Origin: Paracoccaceae bacterium
GTDB lineage: Bacteria; Pseudomonadota; Alphaproteobacteria; Rhodobacterales; Rhodobacteraceae
Assembly: GCA_007692585.1 (NCBI GenBank)
Contig: REBU01000044.1
Span: forward strand, 1-64,000
Length of the DNA: 64,000 nt
Reading direction: 5' to 3'
Shown here: positions 16,976 to 24,773 of the stretch, in pieces
How positions within the stretch are numbered: position 1 is the stretch's first letter
How the letters are laid out: each line of letters starts with the position of its first letter
Translations under genes and position numbers: made by a program
The notes under the pieces: generated by a model
What the model saw: only the letters and a program-made list of their open reading frames with translations
What the model was told of the DNA's origin: nothing
The model's database searches: none

Positions 16976-17162
16976 GGTGTAGTGATAGCCGAACCGGCGC
17001 ATGCATTGCCAGCCATATCCCAAGATCATCGCACAATCTATGGAACCCGGGCTCCAGCCGCATTATATGCCCAGATCAGCGGCACATAGCTGGCCCGCGC
17101 CGAATACAAAGGGAATAGCTGAAGATGTCCGACTGTCCGATGACCCCGCGCAGGTCACCGCT

Positions 17163-18122
17163 ATGAGCCACGCTGCCCTCCAGCCGATCGATGCCGTGAT
17201 CACCTGGGTCAATGGGACCGATCCGGCCCATCTGGCGCGCCGCCAGCAGCGCCAGATGCAACTCGGCGGCGCGCTGCATGCCAATGCCATCAATCCGCAT
17301 CGCTGGGGCAGCAGTGACGAGCTGACCTACTGCCTGACCAGCATTGCCCATCACGCGCCCTGGCTACGCCACGTCTGGCTGGTGACCGATGCGCAGACGC
17401 CCGATCTCTCTGCCGTCCCGGCGCAGCTGCGCGAGCGGCTTGCCATCGTCGATCATCGCGAGATCTTCGCGGGCTATACCCATGTTCTGCCCACCTTCAA
17501 CTCGCTCTCGATCGAAGCGATGCTCTGGCGCATCCCCGGTCTTGCCGAGTCGTTTCTCTATTTCAATGATGATGTCTTCCTGACCGCACCACTGCATCCG
17601 CAGGATGTGTTTAGCCACGACAAGCCGGTGCTGCGCGGCAAATGGGTGGATTACAGCGCCCTTGTCAATGATCCGGCCCGCCAGTCCGACCCGGCACTGT
17701 TCAACCATTTCACGCAGATCAATGCGGCACAGCTGGCAGAATTTGATCCCGCGCATATGTGGGCCAGCGCGCATGTCGTACACCCCTTGCGCCGTCCGCT
17801 TCTTGAGGCGCTTTTCGCGCGCCACCGCGCTGCTTTCGAGGCAAGCATCACCCATCCGTTCCGAGATCTGCGCCAGTTCCAGCCAATGGCGCTGCACAAT
17901 ATGGCCGCGATCCGCGCCGGGCATTCGGTGCATTTACAGACCAAGGATTACGCACATCTGCGCTCTGGCGCGGTGATCGATTTCCCACTCGATCAGGTGC
18001 GCGCCTATCTGCATCAGGCGACGACCGGGCAAAACAAGTTCCTGTGCATCAATGATCTGCCGCAACTGGAAGCGTCGCTGCCAGAATCGCGGGCATGGCT
18101 GGCGCGCGCCACTGGCAGGTGA
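17163..18122 (+). CDS. Stealth-family protein (polysaccharide hexose-1-phosphate transferase type)
   Basis: A 319-residue soluble protein carrying the Stealth conserved regions: CR1 as IDAVITWVNGTDPAHLARRQ, CR2 as WGSSDELTYCLTSIAHHAPW continuing to FNSLSIEAMLWRIPG and LYFNDDVFLT, and CR3-like AHVVHPLRRPLLEALFARHR with the FRDLRQFQPMALHN segment. Known members transfer sugar-1-phosphate units in capsule or exopolysaccharide synthesis. No other capsule gene adjoins it. The ATG at 17163 precedes CR1 by eight residues; a longer in-frame start at 17001 would add 54 non-homologous residues. Confidence 0.8.
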   Translation: MSHAALQPIDAVITWVNGTDPAHLARRQQRQMQLGGALHANAINPHRWGSSDELTYCLTSIAHHAPWLRHVWLVTDAQTPDLSAVPAQLRERLAIVDHREIFAGYTHVLPTFNSLSIEAMLWRIPGLAESFLYFNDDVFLTAPLHPQDVFSHDKPVLRGKWVDYSALVNDPARQSDPALFNHFTQINAAQLAEFDPAHMWASAHVVHPLRRPLLEALFARHRAAFEASITHPFRDLRQFQPMALHNMAAIRAGHSVHLQTKDYAHLRSGAVIDFPLDQVRAYLHQATTGQNKFLCINDLPQLEASLPESRAWLARATGR

Positions 18123-18300
18123 CAGCGGATCGCAGTGCACGGGGGCGCACCTCTATCTCGCCCTCGTTGACCAACTGCAGCGAGGCTTGCGACCAGCTGG
18201 TGAGAACCGAATCGTCGCAGACATATTTGCCGTGCACAGGTCTGCAACCTGGTTGCGGCCAGCCGGGCCCGTCACTGTGGCAAAATGTCAGAACACCCTG
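18049..18300 (-). pseudogene. C-terminal continuation of the S8 protease in the -1 frame (frameshift candidate)
   Basis: Downstream of the protease stop (18288-18290) the frame one base back stays open to a TGA at 18049-18051. It reads like a real protein: VLTFCHSDGPGWPQPGC, then HGKYVCDDSVLTSWSQASLQ, then LVNEGEIEVRPRALRSA. It has no start codon of its own near the junction. I infer that it is the natural C-terminus of the S8 protein, split by a one-base deletion, an assembly error or programmed -1 slippage. The last 74 bases overlap the 3-prime end of the Stealth gene on the other strand. Confidence 0.5.
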
Positions 18301-19505
18301 CGCGCGGCATCAAGATCAAACAGCCCGCGGATGCCTGCAAAGGCATCTTTCTTCAGGGCTGGCCGCACCGATTTCCCCTCGGACTGCATCGCCAGGCTGA
18401 TCAGCCCTGCCGCGATAGCAGTGGCCGCCGACGTGCCCGAGAATTCGGCAAAGAGCGATGCGATTTCGAGATGCGGGCCATCAGCCGGCGGGGTGTAGCG
18501 GTAAATCGACGGATTATAGCCCCGCCGCCCACGCGGATCGAGCGAGATGATCCGCTGCTTGGGGAAATGCTGCGCGGGATCGGGCCGCTTGAGATAGGGA
18601 TCAACCTCGGCCCATGGATCAAGAAAGGCCAGGTCACGATCATAACGGCTGGCCTGGGTGCTGAGTGTTGCGATGACGCTCGTATCGCCCGGCTTGGGAT
18701 GATAGGCATAGGTCAGCGGCTTTCCGTCAATGTCGCAGGCCGTGACCGCGACCAGACCGGGAAAAGAGCCCGCGAGACTGGCGGGATAGGACAGCGCGTG
18801 CGCCCCTGAATTACCGGCTGCGCACAAGACCAGAGTGGTTTCGCAAATCTGCCTGAGCCGCTCGGTCACAGCAGACCATCTTCCTTCACTGGGATCAAAA
18901 CTCGGCGCGTCTTCCGCAACGCGTATCGTGTCATCCCACGCGGCGGCCACCACAATGATCTGTGGCTTGTCGCGAAGCTTGTCAATGTAGTCAAGCGCGC
19001 CAAGAACCATATCCGGGTCGGGCGCGGCACTCAGCGAAACGGGGATCATCTGACAGAACGGATTGATCCCGGCATAGGGCAGCGCGATCTCCTTTTTCGT
19101 CCCGCACTCATCGATCGAAGTCAAACCCACCCGCTCGGGCCGCAACAGATCCGCGCGGACGGGACGCGCGCCGATCAATCCTGCCACAGCCGTGCCATGC
19201 GCCCCGTAAATCGTGGGGCCCGTCTTAGTGTCCACGAGGTCGCCGGAATTCAAGCTGGAAAAATCCTGCATATTCGCCGTGTCGATCGCACCGTTGAGGT
19301 TTGGATGCTCCCAATCAACGGTGGTGTCCATGATTGCAATCCTGTCCGGTGTCGCCGCTTGCGCCGCTTTTTCCCAAGCGCAACTGGCAAAGTCTTGCGT
19401 GTTGTCAATCACCCGGAGTGTCTCGAGATGCCACAGGGCGTGAAAACTGGGATAGAACCCTTTGCCCTGCGTTGGGTCAGACGCGTCTGCATGTTGGGTA
19501 ACCAT
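18288..19505 (-). CDS. S8 (subtilisin-family) serine protease
   Basis: The 405-residue product has a complete subtilase catalytic set: Asp60 in RIAIMDTTVDWEHP, His103 in YGAHGTAVAGLIG, oxyanion Asn232 in CAAGNSG, and Ser359 in FSGTSAATAIAAG. No signal peptide is visible, so export by Sec or Tat is not obvious. The protein ends abruptly just after the fold, and a convincing tail continues in the -1 frame (18049-18300). It starts 15 bases after the PAP2-like gene and is the last of five closely packed genes. Candidate roles are processing a neighbour product or an intracellular target; this is inference. Confidence 0.88.
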   Translation of the reverse strand: MVTQHADASDPTQGKGFYPSFHALWHLETLRVIDNTQDFASCAWEKAAQAATPDRIAIMDTTVDWEHPNLNGAIDTANMQDFSSLNSGDLVDTKTGPTIYGAHGTAVAGLIGARPVRADLLRPERVGLTSIDECGTKKEIALPYAGINPFCQMIPVSLSAAPDPDMVLGALDYIDKLRDKPQIIVVAAAWDDTIRVAEDAPSFDPSEGRWSAVTERLRQICETTLVLCAAGNSGAHALSYPASLAGSFPGLVAVTACDIDGKPLTYAYHPKPGDTSVIATLSTQASRYDRDLAFLDPWAEVDPYLKRPDPAQHFPKQRIISLDPRGRRGYNPSIYRYTPPADGPHLEIASLFAEFSGTSAATAIAAGLISLAMQSEGKSVRPALKKDAFAGIRGLFDLDAARRVF

Positions 19506-19520
19506 GGGTTTTCCTCCTGT

Positions 19521-20501
19521 TCAATACCATTCCGCGCGCACCAGCGCCATCTGATCTTCCATCACCCGCTCGATCACCGGCATGCAGCGCCGCGCGAGCG
19601 CCCGCCCCGCATTGGTGTCCGAACGGATATGCAACCCGGCCCATTCGCGATTTTCGGCCACCTGCCACGCCGCACGATACAGCGCAGGCAAGCCCGGATG
19701 CTCCGGCACTGTGCGCGCGAAGAGCTCCGCGATCAGAAAAGATTGCAGCGCGTGGTTTGACGGATAGGAAGAATGGGCCGGCACCGGCAGGAAGGGCCTG
19801 AGGTTGGGATCAAGTTCACTGGGGCGCGGCGCGTCAAAGCGCGCCTTGTAATGCAACCCGATGAACCCACCGAGCAGGATCAGGGTCTGGAACATCGCGG
19901 CCGTCGCAGAGGCCTGCGCGGCAACCGAGACGCCGAGCGGCTGCATGTAGGCCGTGATGTCATTTCCCGCCTCAACGAGAATATCCTGACGGCGCGTCGC
20001 TTCACCTGCGCCTTTGAGGTCGGCTTCTTTATTGTGCAGATCAGCGATCTCGCCCATGCGATCCTCGACTGGCGGGGGCGGTTCGAGATAATCCTCATGC
20101 CAGCCGAAGCGTTCCATGAACCCGCAGAGCAGGCCGATTTCCTTCCATGGGATCTCGATCTCCGGCCAGAGGAACCCTGTCCCCGCGGCCTCGATTGGGC
20201 TGCCCTGAAATAGCCCCTTGTGCAGACCTTTATGCAGGCCCTTGTGAAGCCCTTTGTGCAAACCCTTGTGAAGACCCTTGTGCAGCTTCCCGCCGCCTGC
20301 AGACACATCCGCATAGCTGCGCTGGATCAGCAATTTGCGCACCAGCGCACCCAGCGCGGCATCACCTTCCATGGTCGCAGCAAACCTGTGAAACGCGCCA
20401 ACGATGTCGTTCAGAACACTACGCTCTTCCAGCTCGATCCTGTCGCCCCACACGACCAGATCCGCGCTTTGCAATATCTTGATCATAGCTTGCGCCGCCA
20501 T
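19521..20501 (-). CDS. PAP2 / vanadium-haloperoxidase-fold protein with LHKG repeats
   Basis: The C-terminal half of this 326-residue protein shows the full acid-phosphatase/vanadium-haloperoxidase signature: Lys219-x6-Arg226-Pro (KARFDAPRP), PSNH at 247-250 and Arg285-x5-His291-x3-Asp295 (REWAGLHIRSD). Ser-Asn-His replaces the common Ser-Gly-His. The N-terminal half is unfamiliar and contains six tandem LHKG units (residues 73-96). One hydrophobic stretch at about 203-217 is not a full membrane domain and no signal peptide is seen. It sits 14 bases after the SARP-like regulator gene. It could be a phosphatase or a haloperoxidase; the signature cannot separate them. Confidence 0.8.
   Translation of the reverse strand: MAAQAMIKILQSADLVVWGDRIELEERSVLNDIVGAFHRFAATMEGDAALGALVRKLLIQRSYADVSAGGGKLHKGLHKGLHKGLHKGLHKGLHKGLFQGSPIEAAGTGFLWPEIEIPWKEIGLLCGFMERFGWHEDYLEPPPPVEDRMGEIADLHNKEADLKGAGEATRRQDILVEAGNDITAYMQPLGVSVAAQASATAAMFQTLILLGGFIGLHYKARFDAPRPSELDPNLRPFLPVPAHSSYPSNHALQSFLIAELFARTVPEHPGLPALYRAAWQVAENREWAGLHIRSDTNAGRALARRCMPVIERVMEDQMALVRAEWY
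20211..20285 (-). repeat. six-unit LHKG-coding tandem repeat (12-base unit)
   Basis: Inside the PAP2-like gene, residues 73-97 read as six consecutive LHKG units plus a final Leu. At DNA level all six 12-base units differ through synonymous changes (CTG, CTT and TTG for Leu; CAC and CAT for His; AAG and AAA for Lys; several Gly codons). The peptide is kept while the DNA has diverged, which points to selection on the protein and not to fresh replication slippage. Confidence 0.95.
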
Positions 20502-20515
20502 GGCATCTCTCCCTT

Positions 20516-22330
20516 TCAGTGCAAAATATCACTTTGCCGCAGCCCCTGAACCAGCCGCTGGCTCAGATCAGTCGGCGCGCGGCGCAAAAGACCGTCGGCC
20601 CAATCCGACAGATCGTATCCCGGTCGCAGGGTCTGGATGCGGACCATCATGCGCCGCGCATCCGTGCTCTGGCCCGACAACGCCAGACCTGCCATCGCAT
20701 AGCGCAGCGCACCGAGATATTTCGGGCGGCGAAACAGCGCCTGATTGGCATGCAAAAGCGACTGGTGGAAATCACCGCGCGCCATGCTGACCATCGCCCC
20801 TGTCACCTCATAGGTATACCGCCAGGGACTGAACGCGCCGACGCGCAGGCACCGTGCCACAGCCTCTGCCGCACCGTCGATATCGCCCCGGATCAGCCGG
20901 AGAACCGCCAGATGGTCTAGATTGATCGCCAGATGCGGATTGCGCTCATAGGCGGCTTCTACCATAAGTTGCGCGATGTCGCTGTCATCCGAGAGCATGT
21001 GCATCGCGTATCCTGCAAGGCTCTGACAGAGCGGCAGAAGCGGGTCCGATGCCCGCATGCTGGCGATCACATCGCAAAGTCGGACCGCATCGAACGTCGT
21101 GGCCGCCCCGATCCCTTCATGGACCTTGAAGACCTGGGCAAAGGCCCGCAGGCATTCGAGCATCGCAGACGGGCCGTCATCCAGCATCCGCTCGAGTTGC
21201 GTTTCCGTGCGCAGAATGGTCGATGTGTCCAACGAGAACAACGCCGCAACCGCCGAGATGGGAAAGAGATCAGCCCCGCCCGCCGAATGTCCCTGCGAGG
21301 CCAGCCGATCCACCAGCAATTCCCCGACCGCATGGGCGCGGTCCGCGCTGTGCGGCACCTGCGGGTCGATCGGGTCCGATACCCACAAGACGCGGCGCGT
21401 GCACGCCTCCATCAGCTGCAGCCGCGTACGCAGCGCCCTGCCGTTCTTCTCGACAGCGGGCTGCAACCAGTGGCTCGCACCGCGGCCAGACTCGATGGGC
21501 AGCGGCAGGATCGGGTGGTCCGCGCGGCGCAAATCATGCACATCCATCGTGGTCGTGTGCCACAGGAACGATACGACATGATCCACGAAACTGTCGACGG
21601 CATGCAGCTCCGCGCGGGTCAGCTGGACATGGAGCGGCGGCAACAGTCCCAGCGCCAGATGCGGCGGTGCGAGACCGCTCAGCGCGGATTTCGCCGGCGG
21701 GGCATGCGGGGCGGGACTGTCCTCGGCCGGGGCAGACAGGCGCATGTCGCGCAAAAACTCCTCGAATCCCGCGCAGCCTGCCATCGGCAGATCCAGCCCC
21801 TCAAGGAAGCTGGCATCGCGCCAGTCACCGTCGCGTGCGGTAATCCGGCCCGGCGCGAGGCTGACAGTCGCACGATCTGCGACCAGCATATCCGCCCCCA
21901 GAGGGGCCAGGTCACGCCGCAACTGATAGATCGCCATGCGCAGATTTGCCGAAGCCCGCGCGGCAGGCGCGTCGCCCCAGAACAGATCCTGCAGGCTCTT
22001 GCGGGTCTTGATCTGTCGTGGTGCGCAAATCAGCACGGCCAGAATGGCCTGACGCAACATGCTGCCCGGTGTGATGTCGCAACCATCCTGCGCGATCACC
22101 CGGAACGGACCCAGAAGACTGGCACTGGCGCAGCGCGGGCCAGTCTCGCCCGGGTGCGGGCGCGGCGGGATCTCCGGCACGTCATCCAACGGAAGACACT
22201 TCCCTTGCGATGCCAACAACGCGCTGAAGGCTATCACGCGCGCCTTCGTATACGAAGCGTTTTCACCCTTGCCCCGCGCTGGGGGCAGTGATGCGCGGCG
22301 TTGCATGGCAGGATTTGTGCACCTTTGCAT
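20516..22330 (-). CDS. SARP-like transcriptional regulator (winged helix plus TPR-like domain)
   Basis: After about 65 poorly conserved residues comes a SARP/BTAD-type winged-helix domain: LLGPFRVIAQDG, then MLRQAILAVLICAPRQIKTR, then LQDLFWGDAPAARASANLR followed by MAIYQLRRDLAPLGADMLVA. The remaining ~450 residues are helical with repeat-like segments (HLAINLDHLAVLRLIRGDID, YLGALRYAMAGLALSGQS), resembling tetratricopeptide arrays. ATG 22330 lies ten bases after the slam stop and has GGGGGATG nearby; an in-frame start at 22444 would overlap slam by about 100 bases. SARP regulators are best known from actinobacterial secondary metabolism; here it probably controls its own operon. Confidence 0.8.
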   Translation of the reverse strand: MQRCTNPAMQRRASLPPARGKGENASYTKARVIAFSALLASQGKCLPLDDVPEIPPRPHPGETGPRCASASLLGPFRVIAQDGCDITPGSMLRQAILAVLICAPRQIKTRKSLQDLFWGDAPAARASANLRMAIYQLRRDLAPLGADMLVADRATVSLAPGRITARDGDWRDASFLEGLDLPMAGCAGFEEFLRDMRLSAPAEDSPAPHAPPAKSALSGLAPPHLALGLLPPLHVQLTRAELHAVDSFVDHVVSFLWHTTTMDVHDLRRADHPILPLPIESGRGASHWLQPAVEKNGRALRTRLQLMEACTRRVLWVSDPIDPQVPHSADRAHAVGELLVDRLASQGHSAGGADLFPISAVAALFSLDTSTILRTETQLERMLDDGPSAMLECLRAFAQVFKVHEGIGAATTFDAVRLCDVIASMRASDPLLPLCQSLAGYAMHMLSDDSDIAQLMVEAAYERNPHLAINLDHLAVLRLIRGDIDGAAEAVARCLRVGAFSPWRYTYEVTGAMVSMARGDFHQSLLHANQALFRRPKYLGALRYAMAGLALSGQSTDARRMMVRIQTLRPGYDLSDWADGLLRRAPTDLSQRLVQGLRQSDILH

Positions 22331-22340
22331 CACATCCCCC

Positions 22341-23636
22341 CTAGAAACGCCGCGACAAGGACAGGGCCACATCCGTGGCGCGCATGCGGTGAAGGGGAAT
22401 ATTGCTCGACTGCCATCTACGCGTAAGCGTAAGCTGTGGCACAAGACCCTGGAATTGTAGCCGATCGTGACTGAGGGTCACACGCAGGCTGCGAACCCGG
22501 TCGCGACGGGCGACCGAAAAGCCCGGATAGACCCCATCATGGGTGTTGCGCCCCAGCAGCGTGCTGACGCCCAGATGAAGCTCATCACCAAGACGGGTGG
22601 ACAGGCCAAGGCCAAGCGCAAGGTCAGTATGGGTCAGATGTGCTGCACGCGCGGTTTCACGCAGCACAGGCAGCTCCAGTGTCAGCCTGGTGTCTTGTGA
22701 CAGGGCATAATGCAGCCCCGGTGTCACACGGATCTGGATGCCATCGCGAAACTCCGCGCGCGGGAAACGTTGCCGCAGGTATTCGGCATGAATGAAAAGC
22801 TGCAAACGCGCGGTCACAAGGCCCGCCGCGCTTGTCCCGAAACCGGCCTGCTGGCGGGTCAGATCACCCGCCTGAAAAAGCTGCGTGACGCGGGGACCGA
22901 AGGTGAGCGTGCTGCGCGGCCCGCGCCGCGTCACATCGAGCCGCAGCGCGAGCTCTGTCTCATCGGGTTTGCGCGATGTGCTGAAGCGGCGATGATCGAG
23001 TGAGGCCGACACGATGGCCGTCATCATTGGCCCCAGCGTCCAGCGATACCAGGCCGTCGCCCCCAGCGTCACGCCCAGACCCGATGTCGCCCGAGATGCA
23101 GGGTCAAGCATGAAGGGCACCCCATCGATCATGACGGTCCGGGTCGCGCTGCCCGCCGTGATGTTGGAGGAGGGCAAAAGCGCGAAACGCAAGGCGAGCC
23201 CCGCGCGCGGGTGGTGCCGCACCGTTGCGAGCTGCGTGAGAAGCTGGTCGCGCAACTGCGCATCTTCCGTGCGCGACGCCAGCTGATGCGCCTGCGCGAC
23301 TGCGGCCCCAAGCTGCCCGGCGGCGTGCAGCGCCCGGATCAGCCACATCCGCGCAGGCTCGAAATCGGGCGCGACAGCCAGGATGTCGCGAAAAATCGCT
23401 ATTGCGCCATCGGCATCGCCCGCGCGCAGGGCGATCAAGCCTTCAAGTTGTGCCTGATGCAAGCCCGCATCGGGGCGCCTGGCCAGGTGCCGCGAAAGCG
23501 CTTCGCGGGCGGCGACAGCATCACCGCGCTGCAGCGCCTGCGCCATTGTCTCGGCCGGGGTCTGGGCTGTTGCGCCAGTCGCAAGCGCGAGGGCGACAGT
23601 CAGACCCGCGAACAGTCTGCGAAGACAGAGTTTCAT
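22341..23636 (-). CDS. Slam-type surface lipoprotein assembly modifier (DUF560 outer-membrane protein)
   Basis: Slam proteins move lipoproteins to the cell surface across the outer membrane. This 431-residue protein has a signal peptide (residues 1-24, cut after ATAQ), an N-terminal TPR region (about 28-150; AREALSRHLARRPDAGLHQA, GDADGAIAIFRDILAVAPDF) and a C-terminal beta-barrel from about 155 (LRFALLPSSNITAGS) that ends in Phe, the usual outer-membrane insertion signal. The length is somewhat short of neisserial Slam. The ATG follows TTGGGGAAATC. A TbpB-like lipoprotein is encoded just upstream, the expected substrate arrangement. Confidence 0.8.
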   Translation of the reverse strand: MKLCLRRLFAGLTVALALATGATAQTPAETMAQALQRGDAVAAREALSRHLARRPDAGLHQAQLEGLIALRAGDADGAIAIFRDILAVAPDFEPARMWLIRALHAAGQLGAAVAQAHQLASRTEDAQLRDQLLTQLATVRHHPRAGLALRFALLPSSNITAGSATRTVMIDGVPFMLDPASRATSGLGVTLGATAWYRWTLGPMMTAIVSASLDHRRFSTSRKPDETELALRLDVTRRGPRSTLTFGPRVTQLFQAGDLTRQQAGFGTSAAGLVTARLQLFIHAEYLRQRFPRAEFRDGIQIRVTPGLHYALSQDTRLTLELPVLRETARAAHLTHTDLALGLGLSTRLGDELHLGVSTLLGRNTHDGVYPGFSVARRDRVRSLRVTLSHDRLQFQGLVPQLTLTRRWQSSNIPLHRMRATDVALSLSRRF

Positions 23637-23664
23637 GATTTCCCCAAGATTTTATGTCATGGTG

Positions 23665-23734
23665 GTGCGGGCACCACTTGGGGAAGTGCCCGCACCTTGA
23701 CCTTTATCCGGCAGATTCCTGCCCGACAAAGGTC
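23665..23734 (-). promoter_or_regulatory. two intercistronic hairpins between the lipoprotein and slam genes
   Basis: A perfect ten-base stem lies at 23665-23674 / 23686-23695 (GTGCGGGCAC and its complement) with an 11-base loop. A second, imperfect stem spans 23699-23734 with outer arms GACCTTT / AAAGGTC. Neither is followed by a T tract, so they look like mRNA-stabilising or partial-termination elements. They could keep lipoprotein mRNA more abundant than slam mRNA. Confidence 0.65.
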
Positions 23735-23777
23735 ATCCCTGCGCACGCCCCCGAAATGTCGCGTTGCGGCTCCCCAA

Positions 23778-24773
23778 TCAGTTCTTGTCACCCCGGAAGA
23801 AGCCCCAGCCCAGAATGGACGCGTCACCATCGGCGGCGGTCCCGCTGAGATTGATCGCCCCTGCAACCCCGTCAGCCGCCGTGCCGAAGAACGTGCCCGA
23901 ATAGGTTGACCCGGCATCGATCGCGGCGATCCCGGTCGTGAAGGCGCTGTCGGCCGTCACAGCGCCCGTGAAGCCGTTACCGCTGATCGCAGTTTCATTC
24001 AAAGACAGCGCCCCGTCGACAGCTGTCCACGACTGAGACGGATCCTCGGCGCGCGGCGGTCTGCCCTCGAGATTTGTCAGTGACCCGAACACGGTCCCCG
24101 ACCCGAAATTTGCCGACATGTTCAGATTGCCCTGCACCTCGGACACCGCTGTCGCGAAATTTACAAACCCCGTCGTCGGGGCAAGCCGGATGCGTGAATT
24201 GCCCGAATAGGTCGCCGAAGGCAAAGCCGCCAAAGCCGCAGCACGTGTCTCGGTGCCCGTCACGATGAAGGCTTCCCGGCCTGTGCCATCACCGGTGTCG
24301 ACGAAATAAGCAAAAACGTGGTAGTCGCGACTATTTGTCGGGTCGAGTTGGCCCGCCATGCCATCATTGTTCCACGCCCAGATGCCTGCCCCGTCTTTCT
24401 CGAAACCATAGCCATCCTCGGACAGATCCTCGGGCGTGAAGACTACCTCTGGTTGGCCCGGCACCTGCAAGGTCAGGCCACCGGCTGCATTCCGCGTCAC
24501 CGTCGCCGTGGGTGCTGCGGACGCAACTGCGGTCTGCGCGTCATAATTGCGCTGGATCTCTGCTGTTGTGCGTTCCGAAGACCGCAGTGCTGCGCCCTCT
24601 GCCAGCGCTTGCGCTGCGGTGCCTGCTGTCTCGGTGAGCACCTGCTCCGCGCCGGTATTGCCCGAGCGGCCCGCAGGTGGCGTGACTTGACTGGTGCTGC
24701 TGCTGCCACTGCCGCAGGCCGACAAGGCTGCGCTGCCGACAATCAACGCGGCGAGATATCCATGATGTTGCAT
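23778..24773 (-). CDS. TbpB-like surface lipoprotein (probable Slam substrate)
   Basis: A 331-residue lipoprotein: the leader ends in the lipobox LSAC with Cys20, followed by a Gly/Ser linker (GSGSSSTSQ). The C-terminal ~120 residues resemble the transferrin-binding-protein B barrel family, with TYSGTFFGTAADGVAGAINL near the end (the GxFYGP-EVGG-type motif) after SANFGSGTVFGSL. ATG 24773 has GGAAGGG upstream; the in-frame 24833 start would bury the leader. TbpB-type proteins capture host or environmental ligands at the surface. The ligand here is unknown; no TonB receptor is adjacent. Confidence 0.78.
   Translation of the reverse strand: MQHHGYLAALIVGSAALSACGSGSSSTSQVTPPAGRSGNTGAEQVLTETAGTAAQALAEGAALRSSERTTAEIQRNYDAQTAVASAAPTATVTRNAAGGLTLQVPGQPEVVFTPEDLSEDGYGFEKDGAGIWAWNNDGMAGQLDPTNSRDYHVFAYFVDTGDGTGREAFIVTGTETRAAALAALPSATYSGNSRIRLAPTTGFVNFATAVSEVQGNLNMSANFGSGTVFGSLTNLEGRPPRAEDPSQSWTAVDGALSLNETAISGNGFTGAVTADSAFTTGIAAIDAGSTYSGTFFGTAADGVAGAINLSGTAADGDASILGWGFFRGDKN

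Follow-up and report, generated by a model that had tools for sequence, protein, structure and literature searches.

The locus considered here lies in a stretch of 64,000 nucleotides, hereafter the window (contig REBU01000044.1, positions 1 to 64,000 of the forward strand, of the Paracoccaceae bacterium assembly GCA_007692585.1). It comprises five open reading frames, all on the minus strand (Table 1), coding for a TbpB-like lipoprotein, a Slam exporter, a SARP-like regulator, a PAP2-fold protein and an S8 protease. A preliminary description, made from the sequence alone, had proposed that these genes form one functional unit. All five of its family names are supported by profile or structure matches, and the last three gaps have the lengths that it gave, 10 bases between the Slam and SARP genes, 14 between SARP and PAP2 and 15 between PAP2 and S8; the lipoprotein and Slam genes are separated by 141 bases. 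It overlooked, however, the most unusual feature of the locus, a tandem peptide repeat within the PAP2-fold protein. Scans for sigma-70 promoters and terminators gave nothing informative, and a comparison with PHROGs returned a single protease match for the S8 protein (4.4e-9) and none for the other four.

Table 1. Features of the locus (positions in the window).
Feature	Position	Strand	Basis
TbpB-type barrel lipoprotein, predicted Slam cargo, accessory module	23778–24773	-	PF01298, lipobox LSAC
Slam/type 11 secretion outer-membrane protein, accessory module	22341–23636	-	PF04575, N-terminal TPR
SARP-like regulator with a predicted winged helix, a CadC-like alpha/beta part and a TPR superhelix	20516–22330	-	AfsR match, AlphaFold2 model
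PAP2-fold phosphatase-like protein, intact active-site motif, tandem peptide tract	19521–20501	-	7f17, fold, catalytic residues
Tandem peptide repeat (LHKG)x6.2, PAP2 residues 73–97	20211–20285	-	codons vary synonymously at each of the four unit positions
S8 (subtilisin-type) protease, no evident signal peptide	18288–19505	-	PF00082, 5.3e-17

Gene order was compared in 85 loci. Of these, 80 are the best of 207 relatives that a PAP2 alignment retrieved from named genomes, four come from annotated plasmid records and one is a second copy in the window's own contig. PAP2 is present in the 80 scanned loci by construction; its neighbours are not. The SARP, PAP2 and S8 genes occurred in this order in 82 of the 85 loci, the other three (L047, L063 and L101) being cut by contig ends. 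The second copy lies 2.5 kb past the window, at contig positions 66485–70625. Its PAP2 domain is 43% identical to that of the window, and neither Slam nor lipoprotein was detected with it by tblastn, nor any Slam in the stretch read. One Natronohydrobacter metagenome-assembled genome holds close relatives of both copies (L037, 81%, and L084, 92%, for PAP2). The distribution is patchy, with a PAP2 match of any kind in 66 of 198 genomes of the family; carriage of the cassette on plasmids was seen in 78 records, and it recurs in many cultured Rhodobacterales and in rhizobia.

The full order lipoprotein-Slam-SARP-PAP2-S8 recurred in 6 of the 80 scanned loci (L037, L038, L039, L040, L041 and L043), which is beyond chance; L042, a possible seventh, is cut by a contig end and not judgeable. 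In L038, L040, L041 and L043, the end of the Slam match is no more than about 7 bases away from the earliest start that SARP could use. Neither Slam nor lipoprotein was detected by tblastn at 1e-3 in the other 73 loci, some of which are short contigs. Slam-like matches were present in 23 other genomes of the family, 10 of which also have a PAP2 match. Going by the coordinates listed, Slam and PAP2 are neighbours in none of these 10 genomes, the nearest pair being about 13 kb apart (G074). Since the trio mostly stands without Slam, and Slam stands apart from PAP2 elsewhere, the Slam-lipoprotein pair is best described as a separable module added to the trio in one sub-clade. The core of the locus is a SARP-like/TPR regulator, a PAP2-fold protein and an S8 protease, and a five-gene core was rejected as the main reading. 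The claim that a cluster of these five families was undescribed is supported within the open-access literature; that of a five-gene functional unit built around surface capture is weakly supported, the trio lacking Slam in most relatives and in the second copy.

A tandem peptide tract in the PAP2-fold protein

The PAP2-fold protein shares its fold and the full K-X6-RP / S-x-H / R-X5-H-X3-D motif with the class A non-specific acid phosphatases (PhoN/PhoC; 7f17, 2a96). The Pfam PAP2 profile matched just below its cut-off (2e-5; 24.8 against 27.2), and acid phosphatase 7f17 was retrieved at 4.7e-14. The core of the model, mostly at a predicted local distance difference test (pLDDT) score of at least 93, matched class A acid phosphatases more closely (2.5e-7, with 7f17) than haloperoxidase homologues (8.5e-4). 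Residues K219, R226, P227, S248, H250, R285, H291 and D295 were invariant in 86 of 86 sequences. On its modelled fold and these eight catalytic positions, the protein is assigned to the PAP2 phosphatase/vanadium haloperoxidase superfamily. It differs from the class A enzymes in that no signal peptide is evident, that it has an extra N-terminal part and the repeat tract, that PSNH replaces PSGH, and that its partners are a SARP-like protein and a protease.

The tract separates an N-terminal mini-domain from the PAP2 domain. In the window, adjacent LHKG units have a DNA identity of 0.73; the PAP2 protein of the second copy has NR repeated eleven times at the corresponding place. Units read in the trio family were NR, NK, NRG, NRD, RG, SR, AK, QA, AM, AH, TK and LHKG, and in the wider family, beside related regulators, many others appeared, such as GNT, NGGM, GHE, SAY, TGW, DGAV and GGGAG. 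After allowing for rotation, 74 different units were counted, with periods of 2, 3, 4 and 5 residues in 76, 62, 24 and 1 arrays, respectively. Cysteine never occurs in a unit and proline occurs in one, and the number of copies varies among relatives. The wording of the unit differs from lineage to lineage; its place is fixed.

One count covered 183 distinct PAP2 genes, of which 153 had in the fetched stretch a match to the regulator of the window or of the second copy (a match that may cover the TPR part alone, as in L208) and 30 had none. A perfect tract was found in 150 of the 153, equalled by none of 200 shuffles of the same N-terminus, and the remaining three (L045, L080 and L159) have visibly degenerate tracts. 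Among the 30 genes without a regulator match, 13 have a tract and 17 have none. Several of the 13 had flanks that were only 1.5 kb long or cut, and wider fetches of L013, L014, L016 and L027 (as L199, L196, L200 and L205) do show a regulator match. Those of the 17 tractless proteins that were read mostly have signal-peptide-like starts, as judged by eye. At one threshold, a tract was present in 77 of 88 PAP2 proteins of S8-bearing loci, in none of 83 SARP and 84 S8 proteins, and in none of 5207 open reading frames outside the trio, spurious ones included.

On a quick tree of the PAP2 core (184 rows), at least 76 changes of unit were required. Paralogues carried different units in all 18 genomes in which two or more tracts were read, other multi-copy genomes not being sought; the second tract of G126 is degenerate. 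As a signal of insulation between paralogues this difference was set aside: it provides no test, since two tracts would by chance share a unit in no more than 0.6% of cases for the wide set and 26% for the tight trio set.

We compared the peptide repeat with its coding DNA. More than one synonymous codon was used at some unit position in 162 of 164 tracts. Neighbouring units encoded the same residue by an identical codon at a frequency of 0.349, as compared with 0.423 expected from the tract's own codons, and 129 arrays fell below the codon-shuffled value, 34 above it and 1 on it. These 164 arrays include one gene twice (L015 is L198) and are not independent, owing to relatedness; the conservative count, with one array per unit, gave 59 of 74 below, 14 above and 1 tie (sign test, 1e-7). 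Because neighbouring units share codons less often than expected, the opposite of what recent slippage would leave, selection seems to maintain repetition in the peptide but to disfavour it in the DNA. Phase-variable simple sequence repeats, or contingency loci, likewise place short tandem units in coding DNA, but all periods here are multiples of three bases, with no frame switching, and synonymous codons break up the repetition of the DNA without altering that of the peptide. Frame-shifting phase variation was rejected on these grounds.

Protease and regulator partners

In the alignment of the S8 proteases the Asp-His-Ser triad and oxyanion Asn of subtilases are conserved, D60 in 84, H103 in 85, N232 in 85 and S359 in 84 of 85 proteins. 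The wide family adds 60 loci. In 47 of them PAP2 adjoins an S8-like gene (48 proteins) that is longer than the window's S8 and lay beyond the reach of tblastn with the latter; Pfam S8 matched 40 of the 48 at 0.01, Asp, His and Asn were invariant and Ser was present in at least 90%. Other proteases occupy the same place elsewhere, a papain-like gene in five loci and the glutamic protease Peptidase_A4 in the class-wide loci L207, L208, L209, L210 and L211. In L198 (1489–4269, minus strand) a single protein of 926 amino acids has, besides its PAP2 and S8 domains, TH-rich repeats and a start that looks Tat-like by eye; it would seem to be a form of the cassette that is both fused and exported. As unrelated proteases replace S8, and one fusion exists, we argue that proteolysis and the tract-bearing PAP2 protein work together. 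In L206 the S8 gene is further off (seen as L224), and L166 is a PAP2 of the wide family without a tract.

Wider fetches of L157 and L194 (L222, 5584–8535, and L223, 5700–8366, both minus strand) contain large proteins of 983 and 888 amino acids with HEFGH and HEMGH motifs, respectively, and PAP2 tracts rich in GL and GQ. These proteins matched no Pfam or NCBIfam family and, judging by the motif, could represent a fourth protease type. In 11 Rhodobacterales loci a second S8 protease gene lies close upstream of the trio, at about 1 kb in most (L055, 5233–6894, and relatives); the copy in L055 gave a weak Ig-like match on scanning.

The start of the regulator is uncertain, a TTG upstream at 22444 being possible. 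The Pfam profile Trans_reg_C matched below its cut-off (1.3e-4) and the AfsR chain 8hvr at 3.3e-5. The AlphaFold2 model, with a mean pLDDT of 84.8 and residues 7–62 under 50, retrieved by Foldseek the CadC structure 3ly7 (6.4e-6) and TPR superhelices. We therefore call the regulator SARP-like only, on the basis of the 8hvr match and the predicted fold. Its model resembles AfsR/SARP and CadC-type regulators in a predicted winged helix, an alpha/beta middle part and a helical C-terminus; unlike them it is, by inspection, cytoplasmic and paired with a repeat-tagged PAP2 protein and a protease. TPR superhelices bind extended peptides, which makes that of the regulator a candidate reader of the tract. 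In L208 (5848–7746, minus strand), the regulator beside a GNT-type PAP2 gene and an A4 protease gene is a class III nucleotide cyclase with TPRs and not a SARP protein; the TPR part may for this reason be the constant one.

Possible roles of the tract

We tentatively favour a reading in which the tract is a docking or cleavage tag that couples the PAP2 protein to the protease or to the TPR regulator. The PAP2 enzyme would hydrolyse small phosphate esters, or else be a relative of haloperoxidase type. Its tract would act as a multivalent docking site, a cleavage tag or both, with repetition mattering and not which residues repeat, and would be engaged by the partner protease or by the TPR superhelix of the regulator. 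Proteolysis or release of the tract would then switch either the regulator or the enzyme. As the weakest step of the scheme, a surface lipoprotein and the protein that exports it would be made from one transcript with the trio in the window's clade, which would link the switch to the surface of the cell; the Slam pair there may place a surface protein under a shared promoter.

Several observations weigh against this coupling. The tract was modelled at low confidence (pLDDT about 49–56, weak helix), so that the structure gives no hint of a role, and its units differ in charge and hydrophobicity (NR, GS, QA, AM, EAV) in a way hard to fit to one protease specificity. Cutting of the tract by the protease and its binding by the TPRs are both putative. 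Of the 47 wide-family loci with an adjoining S8-like gene, 11 have it on the strand opposite to PAP2, so that the two do not always form one operon. The papain-like calls are weak, Pfam C1 matching above its cut-off only in L201 and below it in L197, L199 and L200, with a weak C39 match in L196. Beside PAP2, L157 and L194 have only an HExxH motif; no protease was detected in the fetched stretch of L169, L182 and L203, of which two lie close to the end of a contig, or of the class-wide loci L212, L214 and L215, and L205 had no S8 match in Pfam. Finally, the tie of the Slam pair to the trio is one of proximity, in 7 genomes only.

The same gene content could be read as an enzyme-fused peptide precursor, in which the protease would release from the tract short peptides, LHKG or NR for instance, to be modified or to serve as intracellular signals to the TPR regulator, in the manner of RRNPP sensors or of the tandem-core precursors of ribosomally synthesized and post-translationally modified peptides (RiPPs). 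Tandem cores accompanied by S8 proteases are known from RiPPs, the PAP2 gene is usually beside a protease of one of at least three unrelated families, the regulator has TPRs, and HExxH and ThiF genes follow the trio of one Rhizobium plasmid. On the other hand, no common cleavage motif is apparent among the 74 units, and no constant modification enzyme stands out among the flanking clusters, which were partly annotated and none of which recurred in more than 15 of the 85 loci; of the four plasmid records with annotation, one has HExxH/ThiF genes. RRNPP regulators and tandem-core RiPP precursors also bring a helix-turn-helix/TPR regulator, a protease and a repetitive peptide together in one locus, but here the repeat is inside a conserved enzyme and its units are lineage-specific, with periods of 2–5. 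We regard such a precursor as rather unlikely. A passive low-complexity linker growing by replication slippage would account for the low model confidence, for the position between two domains and for the varying copy number; it is disfavoured, and we consider it improbable, because the peptide is perfect while the codons vary and alternate beyond chance, and because the tract, perfect in nearly all regulator-linked PAP2 proteins, is absent from 17 others.

That the five genes are one surface-sensing operon, the trio serving the Slam-lipoprotein pair, draws on the same gene order in six other genomes and on the short gaps. Set against the 73 of 80 loci and the second copy in which the pair was not found, and against the 10 genomes in which Slam-like genes lie apart from PAP2, this seems quite improbable to us. 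Patchy distribution, plasmid carriage and replaceable effectors would also suit a conflict cassette, anti-phage or other, whose effectors are the protease and the phosphatase. A PADLOC scan of the components gave no credible match, the only one being a weak subtilase match (0.0027, 15.3 bits), and they were accordingly not identified as anti-phage genes; this role appears very unlikely.

Returning to the tag, a wider formulation, which we offer with more reserve, is that of an enzyme class in which repetition itself, and not sequence, is conserved. The tract of each SARP/TPR-paired PAP2 protein of Alphaproteobacteria would be a lineage-private tandem-peptide address, perfect in the protein, kept actively non-repetitive in its DNA and read by an interchangeable protease and/or TPR regulator, either regardless of unit or in co-evolution with it, so that a cell could hold insulated parallel circuits. 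Proteins normally conserve sequence, or disorder and composition. In this family the unit changes but its position and periodicity persist, and the choice of codons suggests selection against the DNA instability that repeats bring; the known uses of short repeats, in phase variation, linkers and RiPP cores, do not predict this pattern. We know of no other kind of system in which the unit changes and the DNA is de-repeated but periodicity and position persist. No description of the trio or of the repeats was found in open-access full text, a scope that leaves subscription journals largely uncovered, so that this absence is not proof of novelty. The cassette is small, its two enzymes have intact active sites, and PAP2 proteins with signal-peptide-like starts, lacking both tract and regulator match, provide natural controls, which makes the proposal directly testable.

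The Slam-lipoprotein pair and neighbouring genes

The preliminary description had named beforehand a failure of the barrel protein to match DUF560 as grounds for refutation. The protein matched PF04575 (SlipAM, Slam/DUF560) at 1.8e-17 (64.2 bits, cut-off 22), its residues 183–431 aligning to positions 37–288 of a profile of 288, and it is the sole match in its own genome at E ≤ 0.001. At its N-terminus TPR_19 matched above its cut-off (8e-7) and TPR_Slam below it (3.6e-4). The lipoprotein matched PF01298 (TbpB_B_D) at 2.2e-6 with 28.6 bits (cut-off 26), and NCBIfam slam_lipo at 3.6e-9 but with 37.1 bits, under the cut-off of 80, and is thus not identified as an equivalog. By eye, the export signals were distributed as previously reported, with a lipobox (LSAC) in the lipoprotein, a signal-peptide-like start in Slam and none apparent in the other three proteins. 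From these matches, movement of the cargo to the surface is the predicted function of Slam. The pair resembles known type 11 secretion systems in having a Slam barrel with N-terminal TPRs beside a TbpB-type lipoprotein, and differs in the trio that lies downstream; the passages seen of PMC12282271 and PMC8406197 mention neither the trio nor the repeats.

Outside the trio, no cluster of open reading frames was present in more than 15 of the 85 loci, these clusters being only partly annotated. In the window, the gene convergent with the trio, downstream of the S8 gene (17001–18122, plus strand), has a product that, judging by a motif, may resemble a Stealth-type sugar-phosphate transferase. Directly downstream of the trio on the Rhizobium plasmid L033 (10556–12945) are genes for an HExxH protein, annotated in the record as a putative peptide-modification protein, and for a ThiF-type adenylyltransferase. 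On the Palleronia plasmid L032 (10512–14269), the corresponding place is occupied by an animal-type haem peroxidase gene and a gene annotated as a C1 peptidase, and one cluster has members there and near the trios of L052, L059 and L095.

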